From the NCBI GenBank assembly GCA_029252805.1, contig JAQXAR010000037.1:1-38265 (forward strand): a stretch of 38,265 nucleotides of DNA, in the 5' to 3' direction. A program made the translations under genes and the position numbers. The notes beneath the pieces are model-generated. The model had not been told where the DNA came from and made no database searches. It was given only the letters and a program-made list of their open reading frames with translations. The DNA is from Rickettsiales bacterium (GTDB taxonomy: Bacteria > Pseudomonadota > Alphaproteobacteria > Rickettsiales > JALZUV01). The stretch's first letter is position 1. The number at the start of each line of letters is the position of its first letter. This document shows positions 14,039 to 26,598 of this stretch, in pieces.

Positions 14039-14192
14039 TTATCGGCTGGATATGAGAATTAGCAAGCGTAGGCGTTACTGGCAAGCAGTATAATACTTTA
14101 TCTACATAAAATAAGACAAAGAGTTAAATTAACTTCATTTTAAACTATTTATAATAATCTTAGCAAGATACAACTAAAAAGGAAAACATAAC

Positions 14193-14738
14193 ATGGTTAT
14201 GAATTACCAAGAGTTTAACGCGATATTCTCTCCTCCTGCAGAAATTACAGCAAACACGGTTAAAGCGAATGAAGTCGAAGCCAGCACAGCTACACCTGAG
14301 ATAGTCGAAACAGACGCAGTTGCAGCAGACGCTGCTGCAAAAGAAAAAAAAATCCCCAAACGTACAGAAGCTCAGAAAATTCAGGATGATATAAAACACC
14401 ATGCGGAAGCAGTTTTAATAGGTGAATTCTTTCATCTTAAGGAAAGCACCGTTACTGCCACAAACGAACTCCCTGATAAAGATCTATTAAACTTAGTAAA
14501 GCAGTTAAGTCAGCTTGGCACTATCGCTCGTAACGTGGGAACGAATGAACCCACAACGCACAAGATAATGGAGCAAATCGGAGCAGAAATTGCCACCAAA
14601 GGAATAACGTTTAAAGAGGCTTTGGCTACAATTGAAGAAATTCCCAATCATGATGTATATGGCGCCCCAGATGCGAAAGCAGAAATTTTAGATCAGTTTA
14701 GAGAAAAGGCAAAAAGTGGCGGCGGCCCCTCACTTTAG
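14193..14738 (+). CDS. Orphan hypothetical protein, 181 residues
   Basis: I do not recognise this protein. It has no signal peptide and no membrane segment. The first 65 residues are low in complexity, rich in Ala, Glu, Thr and Val, and end in a Lys-rich stretch (AKEKKIPKRTEAQK). The rest looks like a compact mostly helical domain with no cysteine. A ribosome binding site AAGGAAAA lies about nine bases before the ATG and a TATAAT sequence at 14150-14155 offers a promoter, so expression is plausible. It lies on the strand opposite to all its housekeeping neighbours, between tRNA-Gly and tRNA-Asp. Its composition resembles the other orphan gene at 15731-17389, but I see no clear sequence match between them. 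Confidence 0.7.
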   Translation: MVMNYQEFNAIFSPPAEITANTVKANEVEASTATPEIVETDAVAADAAAKEKKIPKRTEAQKIQDDIKHHAEAVLIGEFFHLKESTVTATNELPDKDLLNLVKQLSQLGTIARNVGTNEPTTHKIMEQIGAEIATKGITFKEALATIEEIPNHDVYGAPDAKAEILDQFREKAKSGGGPSL

Positions 14739-15730: not shown

Positions 15731-17389
15731 ATGACTAAAGCACCACAATTCTTTAATCCGGTAAAGGCCTTATCCGAAGACGGCCGCCTCCTTACAGTAG
15801 CATCGAATATCGATCACCGTGATGAATACAAACGTGTTCAATCTGGGTTACGTGGAGGGGGCGACAACCTACAAGCTTCAGCTGCGCACCATTACGCTGC
15901 TGCAGTGGAAGCCTACGCATTTCTGAAACAGCAATCACAGGGCATAGACCCAACACAAGACATAGACTCAGAAGTTCACAAGGCCGAAAGAGAAAAAATG
16001 GCGACTGAACTAATGCGAAGACCCGCTGAAGCGCAGCGCAAAGAGCTTGAAGCAGTGATGAAATATGCAAAAGATGCAGGGCTAGGTAAGGCATGGCTAT
16101 TTGAAAACCGCGCAGAAGCCTATACGGATGACCTAGCGTATCTTATGAGAGACTTCAGATTCATAGATAATAAAGAAGCGGTGATGCATGCGTTCAAAGA
16201 TGCCTATTATGAAGACCAGTATATAGGACGAGATGCTACTACGTATCGTCAAAATCAACAAGATTACCTACAAGAAAAGAAAACCGCTAGAGCCAATCTT
16301 GTGATCGAACCAATTCCAGAATCTGCTCCCGAAGTTGAAACGACACAAAAAACTGCAGCAGCTGATCCGAAAAAGGGCGCGACCACTCCAACTGGAGAGG
16401 TTGAAGAAGCGAAACCAGTCGATCTCAGCACTCTCACTCCAGAGGCACAAGCAGCAAAAACAGCAGAACAAGAAGCAAACACGAACACAACAGGGTCTGA
16501 TGCCCAAAAGACTGGAGAAGCCGCCAAGACAAAAGATCCTCACTTCAATGAAGATTACCATGCCCGACTAAATAAAGACCATAAAGATCTAGATGGGAAA
16601 ACGGTTACGATTGACAAAGGTGATGGCACCTCACTTGTCGTGACCAATGCACTCGAAATGATGCACTTACTCGGCGAAGAAGGCTATAAGAAAATGTGCA
16701 ACTGCGATCCCAACTATATCGCACAAGCCGAAGAATACTCCGGTAAGAATTTCGAAATTAAAGTCGATGGTAAAGTAGTGGCCTCTTATGCTGCAAGTAT
16801 TGAAACTGTTAACAATGTTAAAGCACGCGAGGCAGTCAAAGAAGCTCCTCAGCTTGAAAAAATTTCTACACTAAAGCCAATAACGCCAAGCATAAGCCCT
16901 GAAGAACAAGCGCATATAGATATTACTAAAATCATAAACGACCGTGCAACTCGTGAAGTAACCTTGGATAGGATCAGAAATACCATGGTCAACAATCCAA
17001 AACATTTCTCAAATGCTAATATGAGGCGTTTTGACGAAACCGCTGCAGAATACGAAGCTGGAGACGGGGGTTTAGTAGAGTTTGAGAAAGATGTTTACCA
17101 GGCTCTTAACGGAAGTAAAATAGATTGGGCTGATAAAGACGGAGTGTCTCCTCTTGAAAAACTAGCAATCAAGAATCAAACCGCTCATAACACAAAACCT
17201 GGTGCAGACGCACCGATAGAGTTTGCAAGCATCCATGCCACCATTGCTAAAGCAGCAGCAGGTGCTAAAGCCGCGATTATGGAGCTGGAACCACCATCTG
17301 GAACAAAAGTTGATGTAGAAGCCCTAGCGGTACAAAGTGTAATTAAAGCAGACAACTATGCAATTAACACAGGTGGCATACAACATTAA
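15731..17389 (+). CDS. Orphan hypothetical protein, 552 residues
   Basis: I do not recognise this protein. It is hydrophilic throughout, without signal peptide or membrane segment. Three parts can be seen: a helical, charged N-terminal region (1-200) with many Ala/Tyr/Asp; a disordered Thr/Ala/Glu/Lys linker (about 200-275) with EAQAAKTAEQEANTNTT; and a C-terminal half with a small segment LDGKTVTIDKGDGTSLVVTN followed by LLGEEGYKKMCNCDPNYI, whose two cysteines are the only ones in the protein, and long helices to the end. It ends three bases before the end of convergent lon. Its orientation is opposite to lon and hup, which it separates. The architecture would fit a cytoplasmic structural or secreted effector-like protein, but no function can be assigned. 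A weak GAGAG precedes the ATG. Confidence 0.75.
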   Translation: MTKAPQFFNPVKALSEDGRLLTVASNIDHRDEYKRVQSGLRGGGDNLQASAAHHYAAAVEAYAFLKQQSQGIDPTQDIDSEVHKAEREKMATELMRRPAEAQRKELEAVMKYAKDAGLGKAWLFENRAEAYTDDLAYLMRDFRFIDNKEAVMHAFKDAYYEDQYIGRDATTYRQNQQDYLQEKKTARANLVIEPIPESAPEVETTQKTAAADPKKGATTPTGEVEEAKPVDLSTLTPEAQAAKTAEQEANTNTTGSDAQKTGEAAKTKDPHFNEDYHARLNKDHKDLDGKTVTIDKGDGTSLVVTNALEMMHLLGEEGYKKMCNCDPNYIAQAEEYSGKNFEIKVDGKVVASYAASIETVNNVKAREAVKEAPQLEKISTLKPITPSISPEEQAHIDITKIINDRATREVTLDRIRNTMVNNPKHFSNANMRRFDETAAEYEAGDGGLVEFEKDVYQALNGSKIDWADKDGVSPLEKLAIKNQTAHNTKPGADAPIEFASIHATIAKAAAGAKAAIMELEPPSGTKVDVEALAVQSVIKADNYAINTGGIQH

Positions 17390-24116: not shown

Positions 24117-25187
24117 TCACACTCGCATTCTGACGACATATTCCTCTCGCCCCCTAGACAAGCCATGATATTGGATGCTTTCCACCAGCTCGTCTAACCC
24201 ACTTATCAGACGATTAGCCCAGACATCATCCGACTCATGCGCACACTTAGCCAGCATTACCTGCAAGACTTCAACATGTTTTTGCACCGCTATATGATGT
24301 CTTGCGCTCCCGAAAATAAATGACACCGTCAAAAACTGAAAGAGATTCTCTGCCACTTCTTCAATATGATGATAATCAAAGGTTCCGGCATGAGACTTAA
24401 GCTTTAGTAATTGCCGCTGCATTAAGCTGGCCGCTTTCGGCTCCTCACCCTTCGTCAGTTTATAGAGCAATCGATTTATCTTTTTTATATCCTCGGCAAT
24501 CCATTGCAATGACTCCCCCCTCATGGCATCGATTGCCTGCTGTGCTTCAGCTAATATTTCGGGCACAATCACTTCGCGCAAACTTCTTGGAAGTTGCATT
24601 TTCCTTCTCAAGGCCTTCCCCGCCATTATTTTAACCGGCGATTTATACCTACGCTTTATTTTAGACGATAAACCATACTCCGTGGGCACCACCTTCCGGC
24701 GTTCCTCATGCTGCTGAACGTAGTCTTCTTTTCGTTTACCTCGTCGGCGGTCAGGTCCGATATATTCATCTGACACAATAAACTCTCTAGGGAAATCGAT
24801 AATATGCTCCATTCTATTATAGAGAGAACGAACGGTGTAAGGCTTTGCCAAAAACTCCGTTACGCCACAATCACGAGCATATTTCACCGCTTCTTCGGTA
24901 CTATTTTCTGACATCAGAATCGTTGGCACGAGAGCGACCTTCGCCAGCTCGTTACGACGAATCTCTTGCACCAGCCTCACCCCATCCAACGGACGAGTAT
25001 TCCACTCTGCCAGCAGAATATTGACTTCCTTTTCCTGAAAAACCTGCAGCGCTTCGCAACTTTTACGAACTGCCGTGATATTTGCAAAACCCATTTTAAA
25101 TAGAATATCCTTCAGGAGGATCAACATATGACGATCACCATCTACAATTAAGATATGCGCGTTTTCGAGTTTCTTTCTGGCGTTCAT
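24117..25187 (-). CDS. Atypical response regulator with Glu at the phospho site
   Basis: The first 125 residues form a CheY-like receiver domain (HILIVDGDRHMLILLKDIL, then AEWNTRPLDG, ILMSENS and EFLAKPYT). Aligned on Asp16, the phospho-acceptor position (45 residues later, as in CheY) is Glu61, and the second acidic residue of the usual DD pair is Gly17; Ser93 and Lys115 are kept. A motif YIGPDRRRGKRK follows (about 142-153), then a basic linker and a helical C-terminal domain from about 200. Within it LKSHAGTFDYHHIEEVAENL (263-282) has the LKG-AG-F pattern of histidine phosphotransfer domains, but the phospho-His position is Leu261. I start at the ATG at 25187, which has GGAAG five bases upstream; an ATG at 25211 lacks a binding site. 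Its targets are unknown. Confidence 0.78.
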   Translation of the reverse strand: MNARKKLENAHILIVDGDRHMLILLKDILFKMGFANITAVRKSCEALQVFQEKEVNILLAEWNTRPLDGVRLVQEIRRNELAKVALVPTILMSENSTEEAVKYARDCGVTEFLAKPYTVRSLYNRMEHIIDFPREFIVSDEYIGPDRRRGKRKEDYVQQHEERRKVVPTEYGLSSKIKRRYKSPVKIMAGKALRRKMQLPRSLREVIVPEILAEAQQAIDAMRGESLQWIAEDIKKINRLLYKLTKGEEPKAASLMQRQLLKLKSHAGTFDYHHIEEVAENLFQFLTVSFIFGSARHHIAVQKHVEVLQVMLAKCAHESDDVWANRLISGLDELVESIQYHGLSRGREEYVVRMRV

Positions 25188-25266
25188 TATTTCTTCCGAT
25201 TGCTTATTCATTTAAAGGACGGCCTTATTGCCCCAGAAGTATTAATTTTGGTTTAGAAAAACGTGT

Positions 25267-25363
25267 AGTTATCCACATATCACCATAAATCTGTGGATAA
25301 CTAAGGTTATACAAAATTAATTACCATTTATTCCAATTGAACAATAATTTTATGTAAATAACA
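25267..25363. other. Three DnaA-box-like sites beside an AT-rich stretch
   Basis: TTATCCACA at 25269-25277 and TGTGGATAA at 25292-25300 are two consensus DnaA boxes in opposite orientation, within an 11-bp perfect inverted repeat (AGTTATCCACA / TGTGGATAACT) with a 14-base spacer. TTATACAAA at 25307-25315 is a third site with one mismatch. The 57 bases from 25307 to 25363 contain only about nine G or C. This is the composition expected of an unwinding element, but also of a DnaA-controlled promoter region. It lies between the divergent response regulator and gcvT. Confidence 0.6.
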
Positions 25364-25414
25364 TTCCCCTTCCTCCTGCCCCACATCACTTACCAAATTT
25401 TAATCCGACTTTGA

Positions 25415-25442
25415 TTGACGATACAAAGACAGCCGTTATATT
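25415..25442 (+). promoter_or_regulatory. Sigma-70 promoter of the gcv operon
   Basis: TTGACG (25415-25420) and TATATT (25437-25442) are separated by 16 bases. The start point would fall near 25449, leaving a leader of about 30 bases before gcvT. That is too short for a glycine riboswitch. Confidence 0.6.
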
Positions 25443-25479
25443 GGCTCAGCTTTAACAGGCGCTAAACGAGAGGGACCCG

Positions 25480-26598
25480 ATGGAAAACGCGAAAAAAACA
25501 CCTTTATATGATGCCCATATTGCCATGCAAGGTAAGATGGTTGAGTTCGCCGGTTATGCGATGCCGGTACAATATCCAATGGGTTTAGCGAAAGAACATC
25601 TTTGGGTTCGCGAAAATGTAGGCATGTTTGATGTGTCCCACATGGGCCAAGCTTACCTTGAAGGCGAAGGTGCGGCAGAGTTTTTAAGCTTCATCACCCC
25701 TTCCCCGTTTATGAAAACGCCTCATGGCAATGCTAAATATACCGTTCTTCCCAATGATAAAGGCGGCGTGATTGATGATCTAATCATCACACGCTTATCT
25801 GAGGATAAATTCTTCATCGTGTTCAATGCTTCTCGTAAAGAAATTGACGCTGCATGGATGGAAAAACATATGCCCGATACGTTGACGCTCACGATGCTGC
25901 CAAGCCGTGCGCTTATCGCCGTGCAAGGCCCTAAAGCGGAGGTGATCCTATCGCAGCATGTAAAAGAGCCACTAACCGAGCAAGGGTACATGACGATTCA
26001 AACCGTTCATCTTAACGATGGCACTGAAATCTTCATCAGCCGTTTGGGCTATACCGGTGAAGATGGTTTTGAAATCAGCATTGAAGGCGATAAAGCCGCA
26101 GACTTTTGGAACGCACTCGCCGCACATGATGAAGTAGAACCCGCTGGCCTCGGCGCACGTGACACCCTTCGCCTAGAGATGGGTTACCCGCTTTACGGCC
26201 ATGATCTGGATGAAGAGACTTCGCCGATTCAATCAAGTCTCGGCTGGGTTGTCAGCAAAAAGAATGACATCTTCATGGGTGCCGAGCGCATTCTCGCCGA
26301 TCGTGAAAATGGCCCTGCAACTAAACGTGTCGGCATTAAATTGCTCGATCGCGGTGTCGCGCGTGAGAATACGCCAATCGTAAACGAAGCAGGTGAATCT
26401 ATCGGCACGCTCACCAGCGGCGGCTTCTCGCCTACGTTGAATGCAGCGATTGGCCAAGGCTACCTACCCGCAGCTTACGCAGATGAAGGCAGCAAAGTCT
26501 TCGTCGAAGTACGCGGTAAAAAATTAGCGGCAGAGGTGACAGGATTAACCTTCATCCAAGCCAATACTAAAACGAAAAAACAAAGCAAAGCGGCTTAA
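25480..26598 (+). CDS. gcvT: Glycine cleavage system T protein (aminomethyltransferase)
   Basis: GcvT takes the aminomethyl group from the H protein, releases ammonia and passes the methylene to tetrahydrofolate. The 372-residue protein begins KTPLYDAHIAMQGKMVEFAGYAMPVQY, with the conserved WVRENVGMFDVSHMGQ block, the folate-site region LGYTGEDGFEI, and GARDTLRLEMGYPLYGHDLDE. Length is normal. It leads a gcvT-gcvH-gcvPA-gcvPB operon; the L protein is elsewhere, since it is shared with 2-oxoacid dehydrogenases. The binding site GAGAGGG precedes the ATG. Confidence 0.97.
   Translation: MENAKKTPLYDAHIAMQGKMVEFAGYAMPVQYPMGLAKEHLWVRENVGMFDVSHMGQAYLEGEGAAEFLSFITPSPFMKTPHGNAKYTVLPNDKGGVIDDLIITRLSEDKFFIVFNASRKEIDAAWMEKHMPDTLTLTMLPSRALIAVQGPKAEVILSQHVKEPLTEQGYMTIQTVHLNDGTEIFISRLGYTGEDGFEISIEGDKAADFWNALAAHDEVEPAGLGARDTLRLEMGYPLYGHDLDEETSPIQSSLGWVVSKKNDIFMGAERILADRENGPATKRVGIKLLDRGVARENTPIVNEAGESIGTLTSGGFSPTLNAAIGQGYLPAAYADEGSKVFVEVRGKKLAAEVTGLTFIQANTKTKKQSKAA

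Follow-up and report, generated by a model that had tools for sequence, protein, structure and literature searches.

The window, i.e., the whole stretch of 38,265 nucleotides that was analysed, is contig C37 of the source genome (G000; 2.19 Mb in 63 contigs). At about 25.3 kb a response-regulator gene and gcvT diverge, and the intergenic region between them (25212–25479) contains two facing consensus DnaA boxes, two near-matches and an AT-rich stretch (Table 1). No DNA-binding domain was found in the response regulator with Pfam or NCBIfam.

Table 1. Features of the divergent intergenic region and its flanking genes (positions in the window)
Feature	Position	Strand	Remarks
Response-regulator gene	24117..25211	-	receiver domain and C-terminal part without family
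Inverted repeat	25266..25303		perfect 12-bp arms, 14-bp spacer; consensus DnaA box within either arm
DnaA box TTATCCACA	25269..25277	+	exact match to consensus TTWTNCACA
DnaA box TTATCCACA	25292..25300	-	exact match to consensus TTWTNCACA
Near-match box TTATACAAA	25307..25315	+	1 mismatch to TTWTNCACA
AT-rich 57-mer	25307..25363		15.8% G+C
Near-match box TTATTTACA	25353..25361	-	1 mismatch to TTWTNCACA
Likely gcvT promoter TTGACG-N16-TATATT	25415..25442	+	also in the same-genus genome G001
gcvT	25480..26598	+	heads a gcvT-gcvH-gcvP-gcvP series

A preliminary description of this DNA had pointed out the two facing boxes, a third near-match, an adjoining stretch of about 16% G+C and the divergent directions of the surrounding genes. 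All of this could be confirmed, and the symmetry of the exact boxes was found to extend further, to the arms TAGTTATCCACA-N14-TGTGGATAACTA, which matched once in the window and in none of 100 shuffles; these 38 kb contain no other perfect inverted repeat of 12 bp whose spacer is 30 bases or shorter. The AT-rich 57-mer has the second-lowest G+C content in the window, after a 57-mer at 14106. With one mismatch allowed, boxes reached a density of 14.9 per kb between the two genes and of 1.2 per kb elsewhere in the window; over the whole window, TTWTNCACA was not enriched (3 found, 3.2 expected). TTAA motifs occur in the intergenic region at 25212, 25242, 25317, 25400 and 25452. Those at 25242 and 25317 had been regarded as possible CtrA half-sites and are present, but the motifs are never spaced as TTAA-N7-TTAA, and thus the region contains no full CtrA site. 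A search of the box region for an IHF-like match was negative, as was a search for a tandem partner at 2–3 bp from the window boxes, where the best candidates had 4 and 5 mismatches.

The repeat starts about 55 bp upstream of the start of the response-regulator gene, and on its other side about 110 bp separate it from the -35 element of the likely gcvT promoter. This promoter is supported by conservation, as judged by eye, while a scan gave 2 promoter-like sites versus 1.7 in shuffles. At the gcvT locus of G001 the promoter is kept, a different gene lies upstream, and the box is absent from the 222 upstream bases; therefore, the response regulator appears to be the likelier target. Its candidate promoter, TTGGAA-N19-TATAAC (25336–25306), is weak and one among several weak candidates. 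A conserved box site was sought at homologous loci and not found: TTWTNCACA did not occur upstream of gcvT in any of nine relatives (400 bases each; 222 in G001), and TTATCCACA was absent from each of 21 loci encoding homologues of the response regulator, including two paralogues from the source genome itself. In G001, the best match of the response regulator shares 34% identity with it along only a part of the protein, which leaves no clear ortholog. Elsewhere in the window, two plus-strand ORFs without NCBIfam match (14193–14738 and 15731–17389) lie in an AT-richer stretch adjoining three tRNA genes and are possibly an acquired island.

The genome encodes a DnaA protein with ATPase and helix-turn-helix domains. 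The genome has 40 copies of the word TTATCCACA, versus 9 of the reversed word; in G001 the numbers are 26 and 6. The excess is missing in some relatives, e.g., G012 (11 versus 171 reversed). The highest count among 55 genomes was that of G049, a relative with a genome of 1.6 Mb (111 versus 20 reversed). In the source genome, 22 of the 40 sites are intergenic; 3 would be expected, since the intergenic share is 7.5% according to a crude ORF caller, which overcounts coding DNA and was applied to sites and background alike. The other 18 sites are within ORFs. One intergenic site is located in the gap separating dnaA from the ORF that follows, whose protein is closely similar, by eye, to the Pfam-identified DnaN of the same-genus genome. 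Eighteen further intergenic sites were inspected; genes face 14 of them, 16 in number, of which 10 have a Pfam family and 6 do not. The families comprise ribonucleotide reductase (nrd), MraZ, Obg GTPase, a DivIC-like protein (slightly below the Pfam cut-off), a SIS/glutamine-amidotransferase protein (GlmS-like in appearance), FliK, QueH, a FeeM-like protein, a symporter and an outer-membrane efflux protein. The first few of this list would fit a DnaA regulon; the others need not belong to it, and queH, the efflux gene, the symporter and fliK are not known to be tied to DnaA. At position 50905 of contig C58, 419 bases upstream of mraZ, a tandem double box with a 3-bp gap, TTATCCACA-ATC-TTATCCACT, was observed, which is the arrangement preferred by E. 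coli DnaA. Apart from the window pair, no facing consensus pair with a spacer of 4–34 bp occurs in the genome; the number of facing intergenic pairs expected within 40 bp was 0.03.

Facing consensus pairs with spacers of 4–34 bp were present in 17 of 343 genomes of the same order, at 19 places, versus 3 of 343 for a reversed-pattern control. One locus was read in each of the 17 genomes (a second place in G007 was left out). The pair lies beside hemE or DUF299 in eight of them, by coordinates in G007 and G017 and by Pfam in G162, G175, G176, G177, G185 and G334; in G001 it is situated between dnaA and dnaN, and the remaining eight pairs, including that of the window, are at other locations. In this small sample of 19 places, 6 spacers were of 13–17 bp, 2 of 8–12 and 2 of 18–22. 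When genome contigs were scanned for the extended pair, with spacers of 12–16 bp allowed, at least 116 stretches were returned. Among the 80 loci listed, 27 pairs were within 1 kb of dnaA; a spacer of 14 bp was the commonest among the matches listed (34 of 83 pairs), and this held close to dnaA (11 of 27 loci) as well as at the other loci (20 of 53).

Viral contigs were scanned for box pairs with facing spacers of 0–30 bp; identical copies were removed, and relatedness was corrected for only in a crude way. Three of the four scans returned at least 120 stretches. The 124 facing pairs among the matches listed had 39 spacers at 3–7 bp, 5 at 8–12, 54 at 13–17, 3 at 18–22 and 18 at 24–29, and the single commonest spacer among them was 14 bp (19 pairs), which is also that of the window pair. 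With reversed letters as a control, the entire collection yielded 28 stretches and 25 pairs, 4 each at 8–12, 13–17 and 18–22 bp. Tandem pairs, counted only at loci first returned by the tandem scan (145 among the matches listed), peaked at 2–4 (78) and 11–13 bp (31), and everted pairs (131 among the matches listed) at 1–2 (20), 9 (13) and 20–23 bp (35); box spacers among these matches are helically phased in all three orientations, with a separate phase for each. In E. coli, DnaA was found by ChIP to prefer tandem boxes at 2–3 bp (available text of PMC11317965), and the agreement of the viral tandem peak at 2–3 bp with that result is a check on the method. Part-turn changes between boxes are reported to harm oriC (PMC4285127, in a passage citing Woelker and Messer 1993). 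The accessible portions of the open-licence papers searched yielded no statement of a 14-bp preference of facing boxes. Facing consensus boxes with phased spacers of approximately 3–7, 13–17 and 24–29 bp could perhaps represent a DnaA operator type that is widespread, differs from the tandem double box and serves origins, the dnaA gene and scattered promoters; the 14-bp example of the window would then tie the response regulator to the replication cycle. This generalisation is tentative, and doubt outweighs confidence in it. If valid genome-wide, the spacing statistic would be a simple criterion by which DnaA operators could be recognised in raw sequence.

An origin of replication at 25.3 kb had been proposed in the preliminary description, and strand skew in the window speaks against it. 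Plain GC skew is negative on both sides of the box pair, with no change of sign there. Since gene direction confounds plain skew, the four-fold degenerate third positions of the 29 main ORFs were used, read on the plus strand. This skew was negative in 29 of 29 genes, 19 to the left and 10 to the right, irrespective of gene direction; repetition with a second ORF caller gave the same sign (18 of 18 left, 8 of 8 right; 26 of 26). The measure is coherent within other contigs (positive in 52 of 54 genes of C3 and in 19 of 19 at 1–20000 of C15) and should thus be informative for the window. The best ParB match was tried as an origin marker and failed, as its contig, C3, keeps one sign. A control at the hemE/DUF299 locus of relatives was mixed: in G018, 22 of 26 genes to the left are negative, and to the right minus-strand genes are positive and plus-strand genes near zero (10 negative and 11 positive in all), whereas G007 is without a clear switch. 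This result, as well as the statement in the available text of PMC1914354 that plain GC skew is insufficient in several alphaproteobacteria, calls for caution with the skew argument.

According to the same source, oriC of Caulobacter and Rickettsia is located between hemE and the DUF299 gene. As had been stated previously, the usual neighbours of oriC are absent from the window; hemE, dnaA and ParB-family genes were found elsewhere in the genome. The hemE match stops 54 bases short of the end of contig C59 and the DUF299 match 299 bases short of the end of contig C29, with the start sides of both genes facing their contig end. The 299 bases beyond DUF299 (C29 16532–16830) terminate in AT-rich DNA and contain TTATCCACA and TTATACACA together with four boxes of one mismatch, which amounts to 20.1 per kb. 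Both contig ends have an 11-base overlap in common, which is suggestive only, because the sequence is simple. TTAA-N7-TTAA does not occur in the C29 end either, and thus a CtrA site is a weak discriminator here. Skew is mainly negative in C59 (25 of 29 genes) and C29 (12 of 16), as would be expected if the origin were at the junction of both contigs. Among 55 genomes searched, 44, including the source genome, possess both hemE and DUF299. In 25 of these 44, the two genes are neighbours in divergent orientation, no more than 2 kb apart; they are on separate contigs in 12 (including the source genome) and apart on the same contig in 7; partial second matches of either gene were omitted from this count. 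Among the 25 intervals, 17 were read; all 17 contained at least one TTWTNCACA, and 14 at least one TTATCCACA. The ends of C29 and C59 are likely the true origin, divided by an assembly break.

An origin at the box pair, chromosomal or second, would imply binding of DnaA to the pair, melting of the AT-rich stretch and departure of forks in both directions. The grouping of two consensus boxes and two near-matches with an AT-rich 57-mer, in a place where genes diverge, is in keeping with such a function, and the hemE-DUF299 junction was not seen assembled in the source genome; but in view of the constant skew, the position of hemE and DUF299 with a box cluster of their own, and the missing full CtrA site and IHF-like match, the origin reading is very probably wrong, and the box pair was rejected as chromosomal origin on the grounds of skew and of the hemE/DUF299 location. 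We would give it hardly any chance. A different role could be that of a mere store of DnaA, by titration or in the manner of DARS or datA, with no gene regulated. The scattering of the 40 TTATCCACA sites over the genome, 18 of them inside ORFs, would agree with it, and chromosomal titration has support in E. coli (PMC12371093, as far as available). Nevertheless, the pair is upstream of two divergent genes, the excess of boxes is between genes, and the box order of DARS is not found, which makes a store unlikely, albeit the least unlikely of the alternatives.

The inverted repeat might also serve as operator for a protein other than DnaA or form an RNA hairpin, the match to DnaA boxes being incidental. 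Its 12-bp symmetry is perfect and its RNA fold is stable (z -4.4 and -3.6); yet both arms contain the exact DnaA consensus, the 14-bp spacer is that preferred by facing DnaA boxes among the matches listed, and neither a known RNA (Rfam) nor a terminator-like site (terminator scan) was found at the repeat. This explanation is quite improbable, although less so than an origin.

The site is thus probably an intergenic DnaA-binding element, and its likeliest effect would be to place the response regulator under DnaA-dependent control; gcv is the less likely target. A DnaA-controlled divergent promoter, previously named as the main alternative to an origin, is the best fit overall; its gcvT half is the weaker one, as the gcvT promoter of G001 carries no box within 222 bases upstream of the gene. 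Two DnaA protomers could occupy the two facing boxes, the spacing corresponding to a preferred helical phase, and the response regulator would then be coupled to the replication cycle; the pair may additionally retain some DnaA. If the weak candidate promoter TTGGAA-N19-TATAAC is real, the transcript would start within the repeat, and DnaA would then act as a repressor. A link between DnaA and gcv could be the supply of one-carbon units for nucleotides. Several points count against this interpretation, namely the failure to find a relative with the same site, the lack of a tandem partner, the 18 of 40 sites in ORFs, facing genes without a family or a known tie to DnaA, and relatives in which TTATCCACA is not in excess. 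With the false origin removed, the likely true one is indicated at the contig ends carrying hemE and DUF299, and a DnaA regulon is suggested in a little-known lineage.

Comparisons with known systems are based on the available parts of the papers cited. Intergenic DnaA boxes and AT-rich DNA are shared by the window site and alphaproteobacterial oriC (PMC1914354); the site differs in its flanking genes, hemE and DUF299 being on other contigs, and has neither a full CtrA site nor a skew switch. E. coli DARS1 and DARS2 (PMC5742627) likewise have opposed DnaA boxes in non-coding DNA, but there box I opposes II and III, whereas the order in the window is +,-,+ with a one-mismatch third box and no IHF-like match. 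DnaA-regulated promoters (purH, nrdAB and dnaA of E. coli; gcrA, ftsZ and podJ of Caulobacter; PMC8203912, PMC11317965) have consensus boxes upstream of genes, as does the window pair, although its boxes face each other at 14 bp and are not in tandem at 2–3 bp. Like those species, the source genome also has box sites at nrd and at dnaA-dnaN.
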